Positions 428 through 12,191 of a stretch of DNA of 64,000 nt are shown here, in pieces. Source of the stretch: Candidatus Izemoplasma sp. Lineage in GTDB: Bacteria > Bacillota_I > Bacilli_A > Izemoplasmatales > Izemoplasmataceae. The translations under genes were made by a program, and so were the position numbers. The stretch covers positions 186,001-250,000 of the forward strand of contig JAXKVY010000001.1 in the NCBI GenBank assembly GCA_036172455.1. The letters run 5' to 3'. Positions within the stretch are counted from its first letter, which is position 1. Each line of letters starts with the position of its first letter. The notes beneath the pieces are model-generated. The model saw nothing but the letters and a program-made list of their open reading frames with translations. It was not told the origin of the DNA and did not search any database.

Positions 428-463
428 AAAAGGACATCACATTTTGATGTGTGATGTCCTTTA
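428..463 (-). terminator. Rho-independent terminator of the Mbx-like operon
   Basis: The stem AAAGGACATCACA pairs with TGTGATGTCCTTT around a short loop and is followed on the minus strand by a run of T. It lies directly after the stop of the last operon gene (467) and separates the operon from the downstream flavoprotein gene. Confidence 0.9.
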
Positions 464-466
464 TGT

Positions 467-2455
467 TTATTTTATTCCCCGTTGTTTTGGGGTGAGCTCT
501 GGTGTGTTAGCTTTTACCCGTTCACGTAAATCATTTACGGTATCTGATAATGACTTTTTATGTGCTTTTTGATATAAAAAGTCATCAATACCTTGCGCAG
601 CTCGATGTCCATCGGCAACCGCACTAATTAAATCAGGACCACGTAAAATATCTCCACCAACAAAGTATTGGTTGGCACCCTCTAACTGTCCAAAGTGATT
701 GGCTTTAATTTTACCACGTTCAATCGTTATTTTATCTTGTAAACGTTCTGGAATGTAATCATAGTCAGGCGCTTGTCCAATTGCAATATAGACTTGTTGT
801 CCTTCAATAATCTTTTCACATTCGCTATCAAACTCTGGGTTGAATTTACCCTCTGTATCAAAGATACATAAACATTCCCAAAGTCTAAGTCCTGTAACGT
901 TACCATTTTCTTGCATGATTTCTTGTGGACCATTACCACAATGGAATTCAATACCTTCTTCGCCACCTTCGATGTATTCATCAGTACTCGCTGGAATCGC
1001 ATCTTCATTCTCTAAAGAGGTTAATTTGACATTTGATTTGCCATACTTCAACTGTTGAATACGTGTGGCACTTCTTGCAACATCAAATGCAACATCGCCG
1101 CCACCAATGACGACTATGCTTTCTTTCACATCAAGATCATCGAGTGTCAGATTGCCACGTTCAAATTCACGTACTTGTGGTAAGAAGTCCATTGCTCCAA
1201 TGACGTCTTTATGATCGCTTCCTGTAATGTTAAGACCTCGTGGTTTAAAGAATCCTGTACCCAAGAAGATCGCATCATGTGATGACTCTAGTTCATCTAA
1301 CGTAATATCGTCACCGACTTTAGTATTGGTATGAATGTTAACACCCATTTTCTTGATAAAGTTAATATCTTTATCGATTGCCTCATCTGGTAAACGGTAA
1401 GCAGGTATTCCATAACGCATTACCCCACCAGCCAGTGGCATTTCTTCATAAATATCAACTTTATACCCTAGGGCACTTAAGTAATAGGCTGCGCCTAATC
1501 CTGCAGGGCCACTCCCAATAACGGCTATCTTCGCATCAATGACTTCACTGATGTTGTCATTGATTACAGTGTCATAAATATCTTGTGGGGCACTATCAAT
1601 AATGTAGCGTTTCAACCAACGTATCGCAATCGCTTCACCACGTTCTGCAATCGCACATGCTGTTTCACAGTTGTGTGTACACACACGTCCACAGACACCA
1701 GGTAATGGATTGGTTTCATATATTTTACGTAATCCACCCTCAATATCATCTTCCCAAATCGCACGAATATATTCAGGGATATGCATTTGGACAGGACAAC
1801 TGCTTGTACAGACACCACATTCAACACAGCGCGCTGCTTCAGCCATAGCGGCTTCTTTGCTATAACCTCTAACAATCTCGACAAAGCTATTACTTCGTTC
1901 TTCTACCTTTTCATGTATCATTGATTCACGTTCTAAGGCCAATAAGTCACTTGTGTCATCTTTTACCCATCCTTTATCAACGTGTTGTCCTTGCCATAAT
2001 GTTTCAGGCATCATGGTAAAGGAATTAGGGTCTGAATCACTATAGATATACTCATTACTCATTTCAAGTGAGCTTGTTGTACACGTATCAACACACAAGG
2101 CACAGAAACAACAGCGTCCATAATCAATGACTGGTCGTTGTTGGTGTTCTCCTGCTTTTTCAGGAAGATCTAAGCGCTCTACCATTGTAATAGCTTCTGT
2201 TGGACAAATTTCTTCACAGGTTGAACAGCCAATACATGTCTCCCAATCATTGGTATGAAAACCACGTAAATTAGGAGGTGCTTGACGAGGTGATGACTCA
2301 AGACGTGCTTTATTCTTAATAATTGAATTTTGATTTAAGTAATTTGCATTTTTCTTTGTAAAAATATCTTTAAAGGGAATAGTGACAGGTTTTTTAAAGA
2401 GATATTTCCAAAGGCGTAATGGATTAAAAATACTTATACGTTCTTTATCTTTCAT
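467..2455 (-). CDS. Fusion protein: NuoI/MbxN-like ferredoxin domain plus GltD/NfnB-like NAD(P)H flavoprotein domain
   Basis: This 662-residue protein is the last gene of the Mbx-like operon. Residues ~1-190 resemble NuoI/MbxN, with a CIGCSTCEEICP cluster motif (~74-85) and a second motif CCFCALCVDTC (~114), whose usual CP is CT. From ~200 on it resembles the small subunit of glutamate synthase and NfnB: CVECGVCTSSCP and CGRVCTHNCETAC (Fe-S ligands), GSGPAGLGAAYY (FAD) and IGGGDVAFDVARSATR (pyridine nucleotide site). The usual RR after the second strand of the nucleotide fold is SLEN here; an acidic residue at that place usually favours NADH over NADPH. The fusion suggests that the peripheral arm exchanges electrons with NAD(H) as well as, or instead of, ferredoxin. 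It is one uninterrupted frame, with 11 nt between it and the NuoD-like gene. Confidence 0.9.
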   Translation of the reverse strand: MKDKERISIFNPLRLWKYLFKKPVTIPFKDIFTKKNANYLNQNSIIKNKARLESSPRQAPPNLRGFHTNDWETCIGCSTCEEICPTEAITMVERLDLPEKAGEHQQRPVIDYGRCCFCALCVDTCTTSSLEMSNEYIYSDSDPNSFTMMPETLWQGQHVDKGWVKDDTSDLLALERESMIHEKVEERSNSFVEIVRGYSKEAAMAEAARCVECGVCTSSCPVQMHIPEYIRAIWEDDIEGGLRKIYETNPLPGVCGRVCTHNCETACAIAERGEAIAIRWLKRYIIDSAPQDIYDTVINDNISEVIDAKIAVIGSGPAGLGAAYYLSALGYKVDIYEEMPLAGGVMRYGIPAYRLPDEAIDKDINFIKKMGVNIHTNTKVGDDITLDELESSHDAIFLGTGFFKPRGLNITGSDHKDVIGAMDFLPQVREFERGNLTLDDLDVKESIVVIGGGDVAFDVARSATRIQQLKYGKSNVKLTSLENEDAIPASTDEYIEGGEEGIEFHCGNGPQEIMQENGNVTGLRLWECLCIFDTEGKFNPEFDSECEKIIEGQQVYIAIGQAPDYDYIPERLQDKITIERGKIKANHFGQLEGANQYFVGGDILRGPDLISAVADGHRAAQGIDDFLYQKAHKKSLSDTVNDLRERVKANTPELTPKQRGIK

Positions 2456-2466
2456 CAGTTTCCCTC

Positions 2467-3573
2467 CTATCGATCAATTTCAGGTGAACAAACACCCATT
2501 GTATCTACCCACAATGCGGCATCATCGATCCGTGTGCCAGGTAGATATTTTTCTATTCCGAGTAACCCTTGTGGGTAACTTGCGCCTCTTACACCAACGC
2601 GGTAAGGATGTGTCCCACCGTTAGAAACCATGTAGTAACCAAATTCACCACGAGAGGATTCAATCGGTGCGTAAACATATCCTTTTGGTACACGCCAACG
2701 CATAGCTTGCCCTTTATCAAGTGGCACCCTGACTGGTCCATCTTCCATTTTATCAAGGACTTGTCGAATTATACGGATTGATTGAACTACTTCTTGTAGT
2801 TTTAAATCAACACGACTTCGCGCGTCACTATACGATGATACAGGGACATCAAACTCGACTTTATCGTAATGGCAATAAGGCATCACTTTGCGGATGTCGT
2901 AGGCTTTATTGGTTGCACTTCGCATCCCAATACCGGTCACACCAAGATTCCATACGACTTCTTCAGGTAACATAATAGTGTCTTTAATCCGTTTTAACAA
3001 CGTTGGATTTGCGACTCCTAGTCGGCGATATTCTTCATATCTGCTTTCAAGGTCATCCAAAAAGGCATGGATTTCTTGTTCAATTCCGTTTGGTAAATCT
3101 TTTCTTACACCACCGGGGACAATGTATTGATGATACACACGGTGTCCTGTAATCTTTTCAAAGATATTTAAAATCGTATTACGATCAGCATGCGCATGAT
3201 GCATCAAGGTATAATTACCTGTTGGGGATCCAAGCCCACCGTATGCCATTAAATGAATTGTAATGCGGGCAAGTTCCATAATTAACATTCTAATCCATTT
3301 TGCACGGTCAGGTACATCAATACCTGCAAGTTTTTCAGTCGCAAGCGCAAATGATAACTCATTAATGTCCGGTTCAACAACACAAACGCGTGGTATTAAA
3401 CTAATATTGTTTACCCATGTTTTGCGTTCCATGCCTTTTTCAAAACCACGATGTAACATTCCTGGTAATAAATAAGATTTCTTAATTATATCTCCTTCAA
3501 CAAACATGTGAACGGCTGCATTACCGTGCATTCCTGGATGTTGAGGACCTAAAAATAGTTTCATTTCACGCAT
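2467..3573 (-). CDS. NuoD/MbxL-like large subunit with an incomplete NiFe-site
   Basis: This 368-residue homologue of complex I NuoD and group-4 hydrogenase large subunits opens with GPQHPGMHG (NuoD: GPQHPxTHG) and ends PEIDR like NuoD. A NiFe centre needs two CxxC pairs. The N-terminal pair is reduced to RVCVVE (only Cys64) and the C-terminal pair to DTMGVC (only Cys362), so a normal hydrogenase site cannot form. Mbx/Mbs complexes of Thermococcales also lack a full NiFe ligand set (family knowledge). The ATG at 3573 follows AAAGGAGG by 8 nt. It should dock on the NuoB-like subunit near the membrane. The electron acceptor is not determined by sequence; polysulfide, quinone or internal transfer to the flavoprotein are possible. 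Confidence 0.92.
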   Translation of the reverse strand: MREMKLFLGPQHPGMHGNAAVHMFVEGDIIKKSYLLPGMLHRGFEKGMERKTWVNNISLIPRVCVVEPDINELSFALATEKLAGIDVPDRAKWIRMLIMELARITIHLMAYGGLGSPTGNYTLMHHAHADRNTILNIFEKITGHRVYHQYIVPGGVRKDLPNGIEQEIHAFLDDLESRYEEYRRLGVANPTLLKRIKDTIMLPEEVVWNLGVTGIGMRSATNKAYDIRKVMPYCHYDKVEFDVPVSSYSDARSRVDLKLQEVVQSIRIIRQVLDKMEDGPVRVPLDKGQAMRWRVPKGYVYAPIESSRGEFGYYMVSNGGTHPYRVGVRGASYPQGLLGIEKYLPGTRIDDAALWVDTMGVCSPEIDR

Positions 3574-3574
3574 G

Positions 3575-4159
3575 TTATTTCCCTCCTTTATCTAGGGAAT
3601 TGATTCGTGTTTTACGCTGTTGGCGTTTTGCTTGTTTACTTGGTTGATTGTTTAATTCAGTAAAATCATGTGAGTATTCACGCCCAACAAAATGCGCATC
3701 ACTATATTGTCTTGGATCAAAGTCTTTTCGCATTGGTGGCATATCATCCCATTTCTCCAAAATTAATTGTTTCTCATAATCTGGATTACCAGGGAATTTA
3801 ACCCCAAAAAATTCGTGTGCTTCGCGTTCATAATATTTAGCGCCTTCATAGATAGAAATAATAGACGGCATGACGGGATTCTCACGATCAATTCTCGTTC
3901 TCAATTGAATATGCACCGGCTTTTTCCAATTCATTAGAATATAAACAACTTCAATTTCATTTGTATCTGGCCAGTCGACTGCGCTCAAATAAGATAGTTG
4001 AATCCATCCAGCATTTTTTAAGTAACCAAGCGTTTTATGGATATCGTCTTGCTTGAGTTCATAGGCTATTTGAAACTGATCAATAATATTTTCTTTAATC
4101 GGTGAACAAATATCTTTCATTAGTGATTGTACGTGTTCAATATTATTCATGGAATTCAT
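3575..4159 (-). CDS. NuoC/MbxK-like 30-kDa-type subunit
   Basis: The 194-residue protein carries the NuoC signature region: YYEREAHEFFGVKFPGNPDY, then PPMRKDFDPRQYSD. The C-terminal tail is short and basic. NuoC-type subunits bind between the NuoD-like and NuoB-like subunits in the hydrophilic arm. The gene overlaps the NuoB-like gene upstream by 17 nt and ends 2 nt before the NuoD-like start, as expected for a tightly coupled operon. The start at 4159 is the first ATG; a second ATG three codons in is also possible because the ribosome site is weak. Confidence 0.9.
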   Translation of the reverse strand: MNSMNNIEHVQSLMKDICSPIKENIIDQFQIAYELKQDDIHKTLGYLKNAGWIQLSYLSAVDWPDTNEIEVVYILMNWKKPVHIQLRTRIDRENPVMPSIISIYEGAKYYEREAHEFFGVKFPGNPDYEKQLILEKWDDMPPMRKDFDPRQYSDAHFVGREYSHDFTELNNQPSKQAKRQQRKTRINSLDKGGK

Positions 4160-4712
4160 CTTTTATGCGCACCTCCCCAAGAGCTTCTTCTTGGTTCTTT
4201 TTGTACCAGTCATAGTTGTCGTGGTATCGTTTCCAACCATCAGCTTTTTTCGATTTAATGAGATCCATTAAATCAACAAACCCATTCATGACAGCTTCTG
4301 TATTTGGCATACAGCCAGCAACATACACATCGACAGGAACATATCGATCAAGTCGGTTAATGACGACATGAGAATCATGATATATCCCCCCATTAATCGT
4401 ACAACTACCAAAGCCAACAATATATTTTGGTTCACTCATTTGTTCATATGTATAAATTAATCGACGTAACGTTTTTAACGATAGATACCCAGTAACAAGT
4501 AATACATCTGCTTGTCTTGGTGTTGCCATTGGTCCCATACCAAGCCGTTCCATATCATAAGCACTTGTCATCGCAGGTGGCAACTCAATTGCACAACACC
4601 CCGTACAGTACATTAACATCCATAACGAGTTACGTCTAAAGAAGTCACCTATTTCCCACCATTTACGATCGATTTGTTCTTGTGTTAGTTCTGTAAATTT
4701 TGTTGATTTCAT
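4143..4712 (-). CDS. NuoB/MbxJ-like Fe-S small subunit
   Basis: This 189-residue homologue of NuoB and hydrogenase small subunits contains CTGCCAIELPP (Cys36, Cys39, Cys40), GSCTINGG (Cys104) and VAGCMPN (Cys134), enough cysteines for the terminal [4Fe-4S] cluster (N2/proximal). The PRQADVLLVTG and VDVYVAGC segments are typical of the family. It passes electrons to the NuoD-like active site and contacts the NuoH-like subunit. The ribosome site GGTGATT precedes the ATG at 4712, and the gene abuts the NuoH-like gene. Confidence 0.94.
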   Translation of the reverse strand: MKSTKFTELTQEQIDRKWWEIGDFFRRNSLWMLMYCTGCCAIELPPAMTSAYDMERLGMGPMATPRQADVLLVTGYLSLKTLRRLIYTYEQMSEPKYIVGFGSCTINGGIYHDSHVVINRLDRYVPVDVYVAGCMPNTEAVMNGFVDLMDLIKSKKADGWKRYHDNYDWYKKNQEEALGEVRIKDEFHE

Positions 4713-5618
4713 TTAAATCACCCATCCAAGATATATTGCGATAATTGCTTGTGATACAGCTAAAAGTAATGGCCATTTGTAAAAGAACGTAACCACTTGG
4801 TCAATTTTAAAGCGTCCATTAACATTACTAATTAAGTTCACAAATGTATAGACCAAGACATATTTAACTAAAAAGACAAAAATATTTTCTGCGCCACCTA
4901 AGAATAGGTGAACAAATAAACTGACTTCGATAAACACAGTGATTTCATGCATAATGAATAACATACCAAGTTGCTTACCACCGTATTCAACCATTGGCCC
5001 AGATGCTATTTCAGCTGGAGCAATGTAGGTTTCAAACGGTTTTTTTCCAAGCATACCCATCAAGGCTAATATAGCAACAATACCACCAAGAGGTAAGGCA
5101 ATGATAAACCAGTGATTATTAGCAAGTTGTTGAAACTCCGCGATCATTGAGATGCTTGAATCGCCTGTGATATTGATAATCGTTAATACTACAACCATAA
5201 ACGGCACTTCATAGGCCAACATAGTTGTTAAAGCGCGCATGACACCAATACTTGCTAATGGGTTCCCAGACCCACTCGCGCTCATTGCCATACCAAGCAT
5301 ACCAACCGCAATCAAGTAAACAAAAATGAAGAAGTTATCATAGCCATCAAATGCGACAAGTTCATTGGTAATCGGCATAAACATTGCCGTAGCGATAATA
5401 CCACCAAGGGCCATAATTACACCGAAATCAAAAATCCATCCATGTGACGTCGCACGCTTACTTAACAATTTAAAGATATCAAGAAACTCTTGGTACCATT
5501 TTGGACCATACCGTTTTTGAAGACGTGCTATGACTTTACGGTTTATCCCACCAAGTGCGGTCTGTAAGACAAACCCAAACAATGCGACACCTAAACCAAA
5601 TAAAATATTTAATATCAT
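4713..5618 (-). CDS. NuoH/MbxM-like membrane anchor subunit
   Basis: A hydrophobic protein of 301 residues with about eight membrane helices. Landmarks of the NuoH/EchB/MbhM family are GGINRKVIARLQKRYGP near the N terminus, a central EVPF motif and PAEIASGPMVEYGG. These line the passage joining the Fe-S arm to the antiporter-like subunits. Position M before J, K and L is the gene order of Mbx operons. It overlaps the H' gene by 4 nt. Confidence 0.93.
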   Translation of the reverse strand: MILNILFGLGVALFGFVLQTALGGINRKVIARLQKRYGPKWYQEFLDIFKLLSKRATSHGWIFDFGVIMALGGIIATAMFMPITNELVAFDGYDNFFIFVYLIAVGMLGMAMSASGSGNPLASIGVMRALTTMLAYEVPFMVVVLTIINITGDSSISMIAEFQQLANNHWFIIALPLGGIVAILALMGMLGKKPFETYIAPAEIASGPMVEYGGKQLGMLFIMHEITVFIEVSLFVHLFLGGAENIFVFLVKYVLVYTFVNLISNVNGRFKIDQVVTFFYKWPLLLAVSQAIIAIYLGWVI

Positions 5619-7447
5619 GCGATATCACCCCATAAAAGCAGTGTTATTAAAATAAGAATCCAAAACACTGTGATTTCTGGCTTGTAAGTAAAGAAGTAAT
5701 ATTTAAAGACTTCTCCTAACTCTTTCACTTTGATACTTAATGATTGATAGAATCGTTGCATTTTATCAATATATGCCTCATACAAACGTTCTAATGGGGC
5801 ATAGAAGTTACTTGTATAATGTAAGTGTTGTTCTGTATAGATAAAGTTACCTGCTGTATACGTATCCATTAGATCTACTTTCTTTGATTTCTTAAGCGAT
5901 ATAAAGATGATAAAGGCAACAAAGACACCTATGCCAAACATACTAGCAATTAACAATGGATGAAGATCACCATTGTTCCCTTGAATCGTAAACTGTGTTA
6001 AGTTGAGTTGGGCAATATTTAACTCACTTAAAATCTTATTTGTATAACGTAAAATATAATTTGGAACAACGCCACTCAAGATATTCAATCCACTAAGTAA
6101 TAACATTGGAATGAGTAAGAGTAAAGGTGCTTCTTTTACGCTTGTTTTATATTCAGGTAATTCTTGTCCTAAGAATAACGCAGCAAGCGGTCTGAAAACA
6201 TATAAGAAAGACCCGATACTGCCAAAGAATGTCGCAATCGCAACAAAGATGAAGCCTTCACTAATGACACCTTGAAAGATTAACCATTTCGAGATGAAAC
6301 CACCCATTGGGGGAATTCCAGCCATTGAGATAATCGCAATTAAATAAACCATATAAGTGATCGGCATTTTGTGAATCATCCCACCAAGTTCACTAATTTT
6401 AGTGGTATGTGTTTGTCGAGCAACCGCACCGATAGCTAAGAAAGCACTTGTTGATGCAATCGCATGAGCAAATATATGGAGTAATCCCCCACTAATGCTT
6501 GTGGTTGTCATGAATCCAAGTGCGACTAAAATATAACCGCCATTACTCATTGAAGAGTAGGCAAGCAATGTTTTTGCATCGTCCTGTCTAATTGCCATTA
6601 AGGTACCTATAACAATGGTAATCGCTCCAAGTATCATTATGATGTAGTTAAATAGGTGAATATTCAGTGCTGAAATCATTGTGCCAACACCACCAAGGCG
6701 CACAAGCGCAATGACAGCGACAAACGCACCAAGTTTTTCCAATCCACCACTGAATAATCCTGTCACTGGATCAGGCGCATCGGTTAATACGTTTGGTAAC
6801 CAAATATGTAATGGAAAAGCACCGAGCTTTGATAACGCTGAGATCATCATTAATAAGAAGACAAAGACTTTTGTAGTACCACTAAGGGCAGCTAAATTCA
6901 ATGCAATATTAAAGGATTCTGTACCACTATACATCAATAAAATAGCGACCAATAAAGAAAATCCACCAAAGGCACTAAATCCGTAATACAGTGATGCTGA
7001 TGAGCGTGTTCGTCCTAAAGGAATTAAGAATAGACTGCTCCAAACAACCAACTCAAAATAGAAGAAAAAAGCTAAAAAGTTTGTTGTATAGAATAAACCA
7101 ATAACCCCTACTAAACTTAATAAATAAAGCATACTATATAACGCAGGATATTTTTGTTTATCTATATAATAAGGATTAAAGAATGCAACCATCAAATAGA
7201 CAAACGATACCAATAAAGCAAAGTAATGACTTAATGCACTTGCGCCTAAGTCACCTAAAACACCTGGTAAATAGTTAACAGTCAGGTCAAGTGTATCAGT
7301 ATACCCATACATTGCTAATGAGCCAAACACAAATGCTGATCCTAAAATGGTGATGACACTCCCTAAGGTACGATGTAAATTGCCTAGCAGATAGGCCAAC
7401 ATACCGAATCCAAGTGTAATGATAATAATGAGTTCTAAATTAGCCAT
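5615..7447 (-). CDS. MbxH'-like antiporter subunit (NuoL/MrpD type) with C-terminal extension
   Basis: The 610-residue polytopic protein belongs to the proton-conducting membrane transporter family (NuoL/M/N, MrpA/D). It has the conserved WLPNVLTDAPDPVTG segment, KLGAFPLH with its buried Lys, and SKLGAF/HAIAS regions. The last ~130 residues form a polar linker and a final membrane helix, resembling the lateral-helix extension of MbxH'/NuoL that braces neighbouring subunits. It is the second of two such subunits; duplication of H is a hallmark of Mbx rather than Mbh. It likely moves Na+ or H+. It overlaps the preceding gene by 13 nt and has its own strong AAAGGAG ribosome site. Confidence 0.92.
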   Translation of the reverse strand: MANLELIIIITLGFGMLAYLLGNLHRTLGSVITILGSAFVFGSLAMYGYTDTLDLTVNYLPGVLGDLGASALSHYFALLVSFVYLMVAFFNPYYIDKQKYPALYSMLYLLSLVGVIGLFYTTNFLAFFFYFELVVWSSLFLIPLGRTRSSASLYYGFSAFGGFSLLVAILLMYSGTESFNIALNLAALSGTTKVFVFLLMMISALSKLGAFPLHIWLPNVLTDAPDPVTGLFSGGLEKLGAFVAVIALVRLGGVGTMISALNIHLFNYIIMILGAITIVIGTLMAIRQDDAKTLLAYSSMSNGGYILVALGFMTTTSISGGLLHIFAHAIASTSAFLAIGAVARQTHTTKISELGGMIHKMPITYMVYLIAIISMAGIPPMGGFISKWLIFQGVISEGFIFVAIATFFGSIGSFLYVFRPLAALFLGQELPEYKTSVKEAPLLLLIPMLLLSGLNILSGVVPNYILRYTNKILSELNIAQLNLTQFTIQGNNGDLHPLLIASMFGIGVFVAFIIFISLKKSKKVDLMDTYTAGNFIYTEQHLHYTSNFYAPLERLYEAYIDKMQRFYQSLSIKVKELGEVFKYYFFTYKPEITVFWILILITLLLWGDIA

Positions 7448-8811
7448 GAATACACTCCTTTCATGGTGCTTATTACGTCAAATAGTGATTCAAACGGTGT
7501 AAAGAATACCCCAAATACCACTAATAATAAGGCAATAATAAGATATGCATAGACTGTACTCGTTGAGAAGACGACACGTTTATTCTCTGACTCACCATAC
7601 CACAATGTCATTGAGAGTTTGATAAAATATACCCCTTCAACAACACTACTCATTAAAATGACAATTACTAGCCATAATAAATCGGTATTCGCAAATCGCA
7701 TTAAAATATGTAATTTCACAAAGAATCCAGCAAATAACGGCAAGCCTAAAATACTTAGTACTGCGACACTAAAGGCAAAACCAATCAGTTTATTGTCTGT
7801 AAAAACTCCTTTTAAATCCGTTAGAGTATCAGAGCCAATTTGCCGTTCGATGACCGTAATTGAGCCAAATAAAATTAATTTAGAAAAACCATTTAACGCA
7901 ACGAGCATAATGCCTAAATCCGTTAATCCATGGACAAACACTATGACAGCAATCGCTGCTTGTGCTATCGAACTATAAAGCAGAATATGTTTTGCTCGAG
8001 AGGAAGCGTAAGCCATAGCCTCTCCGGCAATTATACTCACAACTAAAACAACCGATACAATTGTCATTAATGTTTCATTAAATACAAAGAGTTGTGTTAA
8101 AATGCGTCCAAATACCAAAACCATCGTACTCGCATATACACTGGCAATCATTGGTCCACTGAGTGGATTTGAACTTTCTAATATTCCTTTTACCCACGCA
8201 TTTAACGGTAATAACTTAGCTTCTACGCCCAACCCAATAAACATAAATAATAATGGTAAACTGACCAAGGCAGGGTTAACTTGTGCAATAAGATTGCTTA
8301 AAACGCCTAAGTTTAAGGTGTGAAACATTCCATATAAAATAATTAATCCAAGTAAATAGAAACTACTTCCAACAGTCCCTAGGACTAAGTAATGAAATGT
8401 AGCTAATGGTTTACGGTTAGTTGTCGTTATCAGGTAAGCTGATATTCCCGCAATTTCTAAGAAAACAAATAAGTTGAATAAATCACCTGTTAGCAATAAC
8501 CCATTTAACCCAGCTAAGCTAATTAATAAGATAGATCCTATCTTTTTATAATCACATAACGATAAGATTGCTACTAAGAAGAATAAAATATTGACAATAT
8601 AAAGTCCTGCAATGGCATAATCATCAACAATCAACTCAATACCGTAAGGTGCCTTAAAGTTACCAATAACAACAACACCTTTCGTGACATAATCAAGGGA
8701 TACAACACTTAAAAATGAAACAACCAGTAACAAATATGGAGCTACTTTTTTCATTAAAATACTGAGAAAACCAACGAGTAGTGGAACAGCAATTAATAAT
8801 ACAGCATTCAT
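7435..8811 (-). CDS. MbxH-like antiporter subunit (MrpD/NuoN type)
   Basis: This 458-residue polytopic protein of the NuoL/M/N-MrpD family contains GDLFNLFVFLEIAGISAYLI, the conserved glutamate-bearing helix, and LGVEAKLLPLNAWVKG with its key lysine. It is the first of two ion-translocating subunits here. The ribosome site GGGGGAAAAC lies in the end of the C-type gene just upstream. Mrp/Mbx membrane modules translocate Na+ or H+ when electrons flow through the peripheral arm. Confidence 0.92.
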   Translation of the reverse strand: MNAVLLIAVPLLVGFLSILMKKVAPYLLLVVSFLSVVSLDYVTKGVVVIGNFKAPYGIELIVDDYAIAGLYIVNILFFLVAILSLCDYKKIGSILLISLAGLNGLLLTGDLFNLFVFLEIAGISAYLITTTNRKPLATFHYLVLGTVGSSFYLLGLIILYGMFHTLNLGVLSNLIAQVNPALVSLPLLFMFIGLGVEAKLLPLNAWVKGILESSNPLSGPMIASVYASTMVLVFGRILTQLFVFNETLMTIVSVVLVVSIIAGEAMAYASSRAKHILLYSSIAQAAIAVIVFVHGLTDLGIMLVALNGFSKLILFGSITVIERQIGSDTLTDLKGVFTDNKLIGFAFSVAVLSILGLPLFAGFFVKLHILMRFANTDLLWLVIVILMSSVVEGVYFIKLSMTLWYGESENKRVVFSTSTVYAYLIIALLLVVFGVFFTPFESLFDVISTMKGVYSWLI

Positions 8812-9147
8812 TTAGTTTTCCCCCATTTCATCGAGATTCAATGTACCATATTCGGCATATATTTTTCTAGCTAATGCTAATCCGAGCGCTGTTGTTCCAA
8901 CACCTATAACAATAGCTGTTAACACAAGTGCTTGTGGTAATGGATCAACAAACGCTAAATTATTGGTTGCATTGACACTGGTAAATATAGGGGCAATACC
9001 ACCCTCATAATAGCCGACTGTAATAATGAAGATATTTAAACCAATTTCTAATATATTTAAGGCAATAATAATCTTAATAATATGACGTTGAGTGAGTAAC
9101 CCGTAAAGTCCTATCATAAAGAGGATAATCGCTGCATATTGTAACAT
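8812..9147 (-). CDS. MrpC/MbxG-like (NuoK-type) subunit
   Basis: A 111-residue protein with three membrane helices, homologous to MrpC/MnhC and NuoK. The middle helix has NILEIGLNIF with the conserved Glu, and the third has DPLPQALVLTAIVIGVGTTALGLAL, which is nearly the family consensus. It shares one base with the upstream gene and abuts the H gene, as in Mrp and Mbx operons. Confidence 0.93.
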   Translation of the reverse strand: MLQYAAIILFMIGLYGLLTQRHIIKIIIALNILEIGLNIFIITVGYYEGGIAPIFTSVNATNNLAFVDPLPQALVLTAIVIGVGTTALGLALARKIYAEYGTLNLDEMGEN

Positions 9148-9893
9148 TATAACGCCTCCTCTGTTAAGAAATTATCGATTATACCGGTAATTTCACTACC
9201 AACTTTTAAACCAATTAACACATATATAATTGGAATAATACCGGCACTAAAGACTGTACCGATCGTCCCTGTTGGCAAGAAATTTTCTAAGAAGTACCCA
9301 CCGATTAATAATCCAGCAAGGCCAATAGCGACATACGCCATACCAGCAAAGCTTTCTAATAATTTAAACCGTTTCACTTTTGTTCTAAACGTATCATTCG
9401 CTAGATATAATAACAACAAACTACTGGCAATCATTGTCCCACCAGGGAATCCACCACCAGGTGTTAAGTGTCCATGAACAGCCATAAACACACCTGTCAT
9501 TAAAATAATCCCAAACAATGCCCGTGACCCAATACGCAACATAAAGTTAGGTGTGTAATGAAGATCCATACGTTCCTTTTTCTTACCGCCAAGTAATAAC
9601 GCCACCCCTAAGGAACTAATAAAGAGTACTGTAATTTCCCCTAATGTATCAAATGAACGGTAATCTGCCACAATTGCAGTAACGATATTGGCTGGTCCAC
9701 TTTCTAGATTCTCAGATTCACCAAAGATGACATCATCATTATTCTCAGTTACATCACGATCGATATAACTATCGCTATAATGATCGGATGGATTGTTGTT
9801 TCCAAATTCAGTGAATAGCGTATTATTATGTAATGACAGAATGATCATGCCACCAACAACTATTACAAAAATAAATGCTAAAAATTGTTTCAT
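9147..9893 (-). CDS. Fused MbxE/F-like subunit (MrpB domain with N-terminal extension)
   Basis: The 248-residue protein joins two parts that are separate MbhE and MbhF genes in Mbh operons. Residues ~1-110 have one membrane helix, an acidic external loop and an FDTLGEITVLFISSLGVALLL helix (MbhE/MrpA C-terminal type). Residues ~110-248 are MrpB-like, with HGHLTPGGGFPGG, the family's strongest motif. Such a merged form is consistent with Mbx operons, which have no separate E gene. The GGTGATG ribosome site precedes the ATG at 9893. Confidence 0.9.
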   Translation of the reverse strand: MKQFLAFIFVIVVGGMIILSLHNNTLFTEFGNNNPSDHYSDSYIDRDVTENNDDVIFGESENLESGPANIVTAIVADYRSFDTLGEITVLFISSLGVALLLGGKKKERMDLHYTPNFMLRIGSRALFGIILMTGVFMAVHGHLTPGGGFPGGTMIASSLLLLYLANDTFRTKVKRFKLLESFAGMAYVAIGLAGLLIGGYFLENFLPTGTIGTVFSAGIIPIIYVLIGLKVGSEITGIIDNFLTEEAL

Positions 9894-10138
9894 TGCACAT
9901 CACCTGTCTTTCTAAACGATAAAAGTGTAAAGACAAATAAACTAGTAACAAGCCCACTACCAATAACAGCCTCTGTTACCGCTACATCTGGTGCTTTTAA
10001 TAAGACAAAAGCAACAACTGCAAGCATACTAATGCCTGATAGAAGCATGACAGATTTAATTAAGGACTGTGTATTTAACGCAATAAAAGCGAGTCCAATT
10101 AACAACACACTTAACACGATTTCAATGATATTAAGCAT
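9890..10138 (-). CDS. MbxD-like subunit (DUF4040/MrpA C-terminal-type)
   Basis: A small, fully hydrophobic protein of 82 residues with three predicted helices. The stretch LKAPDVAVTEAVIGSGLVTS is the conserved MbhD/MrpA C-terminal domain motif. I chose the ATG at 10138 rather than the in-frame GTG at 10153 because GGTGGTGAGACAG lies directly ahead of it. The gene overlaps its neighbours on both sides by 4-8 nt. Confidence 0.87.
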   Translation of the reverse strand: MLNIIEIVLSVLLIGLAFIALNTQSLIKSVMLLSGISMLAVVAFVLLKAPDVAVTEAVIGSGLVTSLFVFTLLSFRKTGDVQ

Positions 10139-10460
10139 CTGTCTCACCACCAAATAATTCTTCTAGTTCATCGACTACTAAGTTACTAGGTTTTTTAAAT
10201 GAACGATATGCTGCTTTCGCTAAGACACTCGATCCAATTGGATTTGCAAGCACGATGAAGATAATGATTAATCCAATCTTTAGCCACCAGTCAGGATGAT
10301 GAATCGCAATCCCAATGAGCAATGAGAATGCTCCAAGGGTCGTTGCTTTCGTTCCTGCCTGAATCCGATCAAAACTATCGGGCATACGTAAAATACCAAG
10401 TCCACCTAAAAGATAAAATAGACCGCCGATGATCATAAATATATAACTAACGATTACCAT
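10131..10460 (-). CDS. MrpG/MbxC-like subunit
   Basis: The 109-residue protein has three helices and the MrpG signature RMPDSFDRIQAGTKATTLGA. The start at 10460 is preferred over the upstream ATG at 10484 because the GGAGGG ribosome site lies between them. It overlaps the MrpF-like gene by 14 nt. MrpE, F and G subunits form the conserved end of the antiporter module. Confidence 0.9.
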   Translation of the reverse strand: MVIVSYIFMIIGGLFYLLGGLGILRMPDSFDRIQAGTKATTLGAFSLLIGIAIHHPDWWLKIGLIIIFIVLANPIGSSVLAKAAYRSFKKPSNLVVDELEELFGGETDA

Positions 10461-10707
10461 AATGACCCTCCAAATATCGTGCAAACACGATTGTTTCTAA
10501 GAATGCCAATATACCGTAAACAATTGCAATATCAAGATATAAAGCATTGTCATAATAATGTGCAAATAACGCGATTACTCCGATTACAATCACATTAAAT
10601 GTGTCCAGTGATAAAACGCGATCAGCGGCTGTTGGACCTTTTAATAATCTTATCACCGCAAACAATATGCCAAGGCCAATAAGGCCAAATACAATCATCG
10701 TTATCAT
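10447..10707 (-). CDS. MrpF/MbxB-like subunit
   Basis: An 86-residue protein with three membrane helices. RLLKGPTAADRVLSLDTFN is the MrpF/MnhF signature, followed by YLDIAIVYGILAFLETIVFARY. A GGTGGTG ribosome site precedes the start. It overlaps the MrpE-like gene by 4 nt. Confidence 0.92.
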   Translation of the reverse strand: MITMIVFGLIGLGILFAVIRLLKGPTAADRVLSLDTFNVIVIGVIALFAHYYDNALYLDIAIVYGILAFLETIVFARYLEGHYGNR

Positions 10708-11186
10708 TTGAACACCACCCTTAAAATGCGTTCAAATGTCGCACTTATGTGTTGCGTGTTCTCTTCGATAGATGACCCTTGTACATCAATTGTATGAATA
10801 TACAATGTGTCATCCTTCACATCAACACTAAGAGTACCAGGTGTTAATGTAATTGAGTTTGCTAAAATCAACTTGGCAAAGTCTCCTGTTAAATCGGTTT
10901 TCACTTTTACAAAACCGGGATTTAATGGAATATGGACACTTAATACACGCTTCGCAACATTTAGGTTTGATAGGATTAAATGCCAAACGAATACAGGGAT
11001 ATATAAAAATATAAACACTGCGAGACGATATGGCAATAGGTAGTCAATTTTGTAATCCACATACCGAGCAATAATCACTGTGAGAATTAGTGCAATCATT
11101 GCGCCTAAGATGAGTTCTTCTATTACCCAACCAGCTAACAAAATGTAAATCACAAAAAGGACCAAAAATGTAGCTACATATTTCAT
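10704..11186 (-). CDS. MrpE/MbxA-like subunit
   Basis: The 160-residue protein has two to three N-terminal helices followed by a soluble domain. TLTPGTLSVDVKDDTLYIHTIDV is the typical MrpE/MnhE motif region. It is the first of the Mrp-type genes and overlaps the upstream methyltransferase-like gene by ATGA, so both are probably on one transcript. Confidence 0.92.
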   Translation of the reverse strand: MKYVATFLVLFVIYILLAGWVIEELILGAMIALILTVIIARYVDYKIDYLLPYRLAVFIFLYIPVFVWHLILSNLNVAKRVLSVHIPLNPGFVKVKTDLTGDFAKLILANSITLTPGTLSVDVKDDTLYIHTIDVQGSSIEENTQHISATFERILRVVFK

Positions 11187-12097
11187 AAACTTCCTCCTTT
11201 ATTATGGGTATATGTTTGTATCTTAACAACATATTCTTTATTATCTGAAAATGGCCAAATTAACCACTGTTCAAAACCTTTTTTTAAATATTCTTCTAAA
11301 TTGTATAATCCAAAATCTCCCAAGCCCATCCCGTAAGTATCCCGGTATCTACGATAGTGATCATTCATGGTATTATTTTTCATCGATTCCTTAATTTCGC
11401 GCTCAAACTGACTACCTTCTTCTAACTCGAAGATATCACTCATGACAATCAACTGACCCTCTTTTTTAAGATGTCTGTAAAGACTTTGATTAAAGCGATT
11501 AAGTAACGTTGGCATATAATCAAGCACTTGACCTTCAACATATTTAATATAATGTTCTTCAGTAGTTCGTTGTCTGATATGAGCACAAACAGTTAAAAGT
11601 TGATAATATACTAGTTGCGTATATATCGGACTCACATAGATAACGTCATAATATTTATCGTCGAAAAAAGTATACGACTCCAATTGTTTAAAATGAGTAG
11701 TTAAAAATTGATCAAGTTTTTTGTAATTAAGTGGTTTTTGAAAGAGTGCAATTAAATTTTTGAAGAAGTTAATCTGTTCAAAGCCAGTCACATCAACCTG
11801 ATGATACACAATTTTATTCATTGCTTCATCAGATAATTGAAGCGCTTCAACAGATTGTTTTACTGTCTCTATATCAATATCATATAGTGTCATGTGTTGA
11901 CAAAAACGCAGCAAAAAGGATAGAGAAAACTCTCGCATTTTCCCTGCCCCGATAATACATATATCTTTAGTGTTCTCCATTTCTTTCAATGTATCTTTAA
12001 ATAATTGATCAATCTTATGACGAAAATCACGTAACGTCTTATGGTTCGTTTGTAAACTTTCATTCAGTCTTTGATTAAATGTTTGTATACTATACAT
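11183..12097 (-). CDS. SAM-dependent methyltransferase-like protein, first gene of the Mbx-like operon
   Basis: A 304-residue soluble protein. Residues ~45-80 (CIIGAGKMREFSLSFLLRF, then TLYDID) look like motif I and the acidic strand end of a Rossmann-type SAM methyltransferase; SDIFELEEG later fits a late core strand. I do not recognise a closer family or substrate. The ATG at 12097 follows GGTGATTT and fits the promoter; the longer open frame to 12154 would start inside the promoter region. The ATGA overlap with the MrpE-like gene suggests a link to the complex, for example in assembly or regulation, but that is inference. Confidence 0.6.
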   Translation of the reverse strand: MYSIQTFNQRLNESLQTNHKTLRDFRHKIDQLFKDTLKEMENTKDICIIGAGKMREFSLSFLLRFCQHMTLYDIDIETVKQSVEALQLSDEAMNKIVYHQVDVTGFEQINFFKNLIALFQKPLNYKKLDQFLTTHFKQLESYTFFDDKYYDVIYVSPIYTQLVYYQLLTVCAHIRQRTTEEHYIKYVEGQVLDYMPTLLNRFNQSLYRHLKKEGQLIVMSDIFELEEGSQFEREIKESMKNNTMNDHYRRYRDTYGMGLGDFGLYNLEEYLKKGFEQWLIWPFSDNKEYVVKIQTYTHNKGGSL

Positions 12098-12191
12098 TAA
12101 ATCACCATATATATTATAACAAAGCATTAAGCGCATACAAGGGTTATTTTGCATACAAAATAGTTGCTTTTGCTAACAATGGTTTGTATAC
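12081..12191. repeat. Four copies of a G(C/T)ATACAA motif around the Mbx-like operon promoter
   Basis: Copies read GCATACAA at 12133-12140 and 12151-12158 on the plus strand and GTATACAAAC on the minus strand at 12081-12090 and 12182-12191. One overlaps the -35 region. The clustering suggests binding sites for a regulator; I cannot name it. Confidence 0.5.
12113..12140 (-). promoter_or_regulatory. Probable promoter of the Mbx-like operon
   Basis: TTGTAT, 16 nt, TATAAT on the minus strand, 16 nt before the chosen methyltransferase-like start codon at 12097. The -35 hexamer overlaps one of the repeated motifs. Confidence 0.65.

Follow-up and report, generated by a model that had tools for sequence, protein, structure and literature searches.

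The large subunit encoded in the window (the whole stretch of 64,000 nucleotides that was analyzed, from Candidatus Izemoplasma sp.) is, judged from its sequence, part of an Mbx/Mbs-type, Mrp-linked membrane complex without a [NiFe] site. The two cysteines that remain of the old ligand set, C64 and C362, are taken to be leftovers of that site next to the proximal [4Fe-4S] cluster rather than the place of the reaction, because an MbsL double mutant is active and two relatives have neither residue. The best explanation of the complex, to which a probability of about 0.55 is given, is an ion-pumping enzyme that reduces sulfane sulfur or a similar acceptor and is driven by NADH and/or ferredoxin.

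Organization of the operon

The operon comprises 13 genes on the minus strand, from position 11186 to 467, with the mrpE-like gene first and the NuoI-NfnL fusion last (Table 1). Two antiporter-like subunits and small Mrp-like subunits are encoded in it. The host genome (1.69 Mb, 99% complete) has Candidatus Izemoplasma/Izimaplasma as its nearest relatives. Relatives of the large subunit came from 25 genomes of the order, which gave 26 matches, and from 34 genome contigs of several phyla. The gene order, including the fusion, was kept in all relatives with a sufficiently long contig, across about eight phyla.

Table 1. Positions of the operon's genes, of selected codons in the large subunit, and of the hairpin beyond the operon's end.
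Feature	Position	Strand	Remarks
MrpE-like subunit	10704..11186	-	first gene of 13
MrpF-like subunit	10447..10707	-	
MrpG-like subunit	10131..10484	-	
MbhD/DUF4040-like small subunit	9890..10153	-	
MbhE + MrpB-like fusion subunit	9147..9893	-	248 aa
MrpC-like subunit	8812..9147	-	
Antiporter-like subunit, MrpD/MbsH-like	7435..8811	-	458 aa
Antiporter-like subunit	5615..7447	-	610 aa; MbsH'-like by place and size
NuoH/MbsM-like membrane anchor	4713..5618	-	301 aa
NuoB/MbsJ-like small subunit	4143..4712	-	189 aa; proximal [4Fe-4S] site
NuoC/MbsK-like 30 kDa subunit	3575..4159	-	194 aa
Large subunit (MbsL/MbxL/NuoD-like)	2467..3573	-	368 aa; ends at ...EIDR, without C-terminal extension
Codon of H16	3526..3528	-	beta1-beta2 loop His; column of the complex I quinone His (Nqo4 H38)
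Codon of C64	3382..3384	-	first Cys of N-terminal CxxC; terminal Ni ligand column; MbsL C85
Codon of E67	3373..3375	-	in place of second (bridging) Cys of N-terminal CxxC
Codon of C362	2488..2490	-	first Cys of C-terminal CxxC; terminal Ni ligand column; MbsL C385, HycE C531
Codon of E365	2479..2481	-	in place of second (bridging) Cys of C-terminal CxxC
Fusion of NuoI/MbsN-like two-cluster ferredoxin and NfnL/GltD-like domain	467..2455	-	662 aa; NF010590-like
Hairpin, 14 pairs	429..462	.	just beyond operon end; terminator-like; T-rich tail scored on + strand

Several features of the surroundings were recorded. An ORF of 323 aa (11183-12154, minus strand) without a Pfam match adjoins mrpE upstream, and ORFs resembling it occupy the same position in the Izemoplasmatales loci L029-L032, L034 and L039. 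One genome of the order (G004) has two copies of the large subunit (loci L019 and L027). A Rex-like, NADH-sensing redox regulator is encoded immediately upstream of the operon in one Aminicenantes genome (L051:1838-2464), and genes of the DHO_dh type (PF01180) flank it in two Bacteroidota loci (L049:122-1114 and L060:13395-14312). No conserved sulfur gene was recognized next to the operon among the neighbors of the relatives' loci.

Ligand columns of the large subunit

In [NiFe] hydrogenases, the first Cys of each CxxC pair is a terminal ligand, and the second is a bridging ligand. The earlier note had proposed that the window protein keeps one Cys of each pair. In the ORF translation, the Cys of RVCVVE is residue 64 and that of DTMGVCSPEIDR is residue 362, as the note had placed them. 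The four ligand columns were aligned using E. coli HycE, P. furiosus MbhL and MbsL, T. thermophilus Nqo4 and human NDUFS2 as references. Both residues fell on ligand columns, and no failure to align with them was seen. C64 corresponds to HycE C241, the first Cys of RVCGIC. C362 corresponds to HycE C531, the first Cys of DPCxxC (a terminal nickel ligand; PMC9474812), and to MbsL C385 by its equal distance from the C-terminus. The aligned chains all finish in ...DR (HycE, which runs 32 residues further, was trimmed at DR), which fixes the C-terminal register. An end at DR or ER was found in 59/59 checked copies (the window copy and duplicates counted). Thus, the ligand column named in the earlier note stands, while the opposite C-terminal register that its DTM-GVC reading suggests does not: the Cys that is kept is the first, and the second is replaced by E365. 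Both terminal-ligand Cys are therefore kept, and both bridging positions are acidic (E67 and E365). The alignment bears out the view that the protein is intermediate between the four-Cys hydrogenases and the Cys-free NuoD.

Both Cys were found in 54 of the 56 loci that span both motifs, from about eight phyla (this set includes the window's own copy and some loci duplicated between two collections). The only exceptions were two Bacteroidales loci, L059 and L060, which have Ala and Tyr instead and retain both Glu and the operon. They lie within the Mbx clade of the tree, and their loss of the Cys is therefore secondary. The C64/C362 pattern is not chance.

It had also been suggested that the remaining Cys mark a different substrate site. 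Such a site, in which the two Cys, perhaps with E67 and E365, would form a new active or metal center that handles the substrate, could draw on the conservation of C64, E67, C362 and E365 (each at least 90%) and on the fact that these two Cys and two carboxylates occupy the four former Ni/Fe ligand positions. However, MBS likewise retains two of four Cys (C85 and C385), and the C85A/C385A form of MbsL has activity comparable to that of the wild type; its reaction site is the proximal [4Fe-4S] cluster, which has three Cys ligands (PMC7684303). Ferricyanide treatment costs MBS about 98% of its activity and brings out a [3Fe-4S] signal. The loci L059 and L060 also argue against a new site, and NuoD, without any site of this type, likewise has an acid in the E365 column. 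The suggestion was accordingly abandoned: the Cys pair was rejected as a catalytic site on the published mutants and on L059/L060, and a new site of this kind is considered improbable. More probably, the decisive site is the proximal [4Fe-4S] cluster in the neighboring small subunit.

Family placement and fold

The best matches to solved structures by sequence were both to MBS (6u8y_L at 4.9e-77 for the large subunit; 6u8y_J at 1.2e-65 for the small subunit). In the tree, in which there is a single archaeal reference and the reference branches are long, the window protein groups with MbsL (99/99), apart from NuoD and from MbhL/HycE. Together with the same two Cys in the published MBS, these results uphold the likeness to Mbs/Mbx that had been put forward from the sequence. 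The large subunit also matches NF004739 (NuoD) over its cut-off.

An AlphaFold2 model of the large subunit was obtained from 24 sequences (mean pLDDT 79, pTM 0.84). It gave Z of about 40 against NuoD chains in VIA-align and a TM of 0.84 against MbsL (6u8y_L) in Foldseek; MbsL was not among the best 50 VIA-align matches listed. As a prediction, the model confirms the NuoD/MbsL fold. The pLDDT was under 50 at residues 10-17, 39-66 and 363-368, i.e. around the ligand loops, and no Cys-Cys distance is claimed because of this low confidence.

The P. furiosus MBS (6u8y) shares with the window complex the single Cys per former CxxC, an acid in place of each lost Cys, V in the quinone Tyr column, Tyr in the Nqo4 H169 column, the small-subunit CTGC motif and the Mrp-like membrane arm. 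It differs in that MbsN is a plain ferredoxin-like protein, whereas its counterpart in the window carries an NfnL-like NAD(P)H arm as part of a fusion; moreover, MbsJ has CTGCG where the window has CTGCC, and MbsL has no His in the loop where the window protein has one. The Thermotoga locus L045 agrees with the window in gene order, NuoI-NfnL fusion included, and in the Cys pattern of the large subunit, but it features YRRR (NADPH-type), CTGCG and a loop Glu in place of TSLE, CTGCC and His. The MBX of T. maritima is a 13-subunit complex (PMC9431562).

Hydrogenase maturation and quinone synthesis

Group 4 [NiFe] hydrogenases (MbhL, HycE) share with the window complex a homologous large subunit, the operon plan and the first Cys of both pairs. 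A hydrogenase that still makes H2 could be proposed from that plan and from the remote homology to MbhL and HycE, but the window protein has lost two of the four ligands (both bridging Cys) and lacks the C-terminal extension needed for maturation. In addition, HypD was absent from 90/90 genomes of the order (the control gave matches in 4 genomes). The host's own genome contains several [FeFe]-hydrogenase-like ORFs, which explain H2 more easily. One of these ORFs is split across two adjacent frames (C1:271973-272832). H2 evolution was rejected on the ligands, the HypD absence and the absent extension, and it is regarded as extremely improbable; the argument against it that had been made from the Cys pattern holds and is strengthened by the HypD result.

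The 'NuoD' annotation and published Izemoplasma models would instead make the complex a true NADH:quinone oxidoreductase (complex I). Consistent with this are the match to NF004739, the presence of both the loop His and the tandem Cys, and the assignment of a complex I to X. coldseepsis (PMC8397711). Complex I NuoD/NDUFS2 has the same fold, the loop His, an acid in the last ligand column and a tandem Cys in NuoB. However, NuoD has RxDY without Cys, while the window protein keeps two Cys and lacks the quinone Tyr: V65 stands in the column of Nqo4 Y87, and Y147 in that of Nqo4 H169. In a contrast set of 37 complex I-type loci, the alignment showed no Cys, mostly RxDY, a loop His and, where covered, the NuoB CC. 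The tree position with MbsL also speaks against complex I.

UbiA, absence of which speaks against quinone synthesis although cells may still take up quinones, was not found in the host's own genome (99% complete; all 14 controls matched). Within the order, UbiA occurs in 17 genomes and the complex in 25, and the overlap is 0. By a simple draw, the chance of zero overlap is 0.002, a descriptive figure since the genomes are related and some are incomplete. Because none of the 25 complex-bearing genomes has UbiA, quinone is an unlikely substrate there. Outside the order, UbiA was present in 10/12 tested hosts of relatives, the two without it being those of L034 (an Izemoplasma-like genome) and L042; the argument from UbiA absence therefore holds for Izemoplasmatales and L042 only. 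Quinone reduction was rejected as the main reading on the missing UbiA and the Y87 column, and a true complex I is judged very improbable.

The NAD(P)H arm, the small subunit and the loop histidine

The fusion carries NuoI-like and NfnL-like cluster motifs, a GxGxxG FAD site and a GGGDVA dinucleotide site; its NfnL/GltD-like domain has two further cluster motifs. It covers positions 29-609 of the 611 of NF010590 (PRK13984, putative oxidoreductase) with 832 bits, which falls below the curated cut-off of 946 bits. In NfnL, the YRRT motif holds the 2'-phosphate of NADPH. YRRR is found at this position in L045 and most other phyla, and SLE or a similar sequence in Izemoplasmatales, L042, L043 and L059. 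The missing NADPH arginines of the Izemoplasmatales fusion suggest that it uses NADH, as the same motif suggests for L042, L043 and L059. The fusion of L059/L060 is slightly closer to the Izemoplasma type than their neighbors are, hinting at a module exchange.

The proximal-cluster motif of the window's small subunit is C36-T-G-C39-C40, with C104 and C134 as the other ligands. CTGCC, the tandem pair of complex I, occurs in every motif-covering locus of Izemoplasmatales and in L042, and offers, in the complex I column, a residue that could serve the proximal cluster as a fourth ligand. Relatives outside this group have CTGCG (L043, L045 and L047; also MbsJ) or GTGCG (Aminicenantes, Acidobacteriota, Chlorobiota and Bacteroidota). 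In the beta1-beta2 loop of the large subunit, Izemoplasmatales, L042 and L043 have His, Thermotoga has Glu, and the other relatives have Thr/Ser. In complex I, the loop His is thought to be the proton donor to quinone; the same position is acidic in hydrogenases (PMC9474812).

These features would fit a shift, in Izemoplasmatales and one Vallitaleaceae relative, from MBS towards a complex I that works without quinone and has a third hydrophobic acceptor in its chamber. A complete, N2-like proximal cluster (formed with the tandem Cys) and a proton-donating loop His would then stand behind an NADH arm, and the acceptor would be both reduced and protonated, being neither polysulfide handled by the MBS mechanism nor quinone. 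This proposal is tentative and rather unlikely.

Proposed reaction

In the favored reading, i.e. reduction of sulfane sulfur or a similar acceptor, electrons from NADH and/or ferredoxin would enter through the fused NuoI-NfnL flavoprotein and pass via the [4Fe-4S] clusters of the fusion to the small subunit's proximal cluster. They would then reduce a hydrophobic acceptor other than quinone, with sulfane sulfur/polysulfide the likeliest, in a chamber placed between the large subunit, the small subunit and the anchor, and this reaction would power the movement of H+/Na+ via the Mrp-like arm. The step from NADH to polysulfide releases little energy by itself, so ferredoxin or bifurcation may have to contribute. 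In T. maritima, mbxA was up 4.36-fold with S0, and ferredoxin was modelled as the donor (PMC9431562). This response of mbxA, together with the reduction of sulfane sulfur by MBS, makes sulfane sulfur the best candidate. Also counted in favor of the reading were the Rex-like regulator upstream in L051, the absence of HypD and UbiA, and the conserved gene order. Besides the small energy yield, three observations were counted against it. First, Izemoplasmatales have CTGCC, while the MBS mechanism needs a three-Cys proximal cluster; the tandem Cys may block that mechanism and, with the energy yield, is the main doubt. Second, thiosulfate promoted the growth of X. coldseepsis zrk13 with no obvious induction of sulfur genes (PMC8397711). 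Third, the RnfC matches in the order, described below, mean that ferredoxin and NAD are already linked, and the redox role of the complex could differ.

The complex might also act in an Rnf-like manner, as a ferredoxin:NAD(P)+ oxidoreductase that works through the NuoI-NfnL fusion and stores energy as an ion gradient, with the chamber as a relic of the coupling. The fusion joins a ferredoxin-like two-cluster part to an NfnL-like FAD/NAD(P)H part and is always present in the conserved gene order, and the P. furiosus Mbx was earlier described as a ferredoxin:NADP+ oxidoreductase (PMC6349859). However, that complex proved to reduce sulfane sulfur (PMC7684303), the chamber reaction drives the pump in known relatives of complex I, and the chamber loops and proximal-cluster ligands stay conserved. 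Furthermore, RnfC matches were found in 88/90 genomes of the order, 78 of which exceeded the cut-off, so a link between ferredoxin and NAD already exists in most of them. The idea that the complex replaces Rnf was rejected, as RnfC occurs in most genomes with and without the complex and the two do not exclude each other. On this evidence, an Rnf-like role is a real if minor possibility.

Implications

The two-Cys pattern was already published for MBS and is thus largely known for the family. Within one family and one gene order, however, large subunits with two Cys or none are found together with small subunits that have GTGCG, CTGCG or CTGCC. This series provides natural intermediates for testing how a hydrogenase site changes into a quinone site. 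Given the missing UbiA and the Mbx/Mbs type of the complex, the 'NADH-quinone oxidoreductase' annotations in Izemoplasma are probably wrong. The surroundings of the large subunit, as read from the genes, show an Mbx/Mbs variant that deserves a biochemical test.
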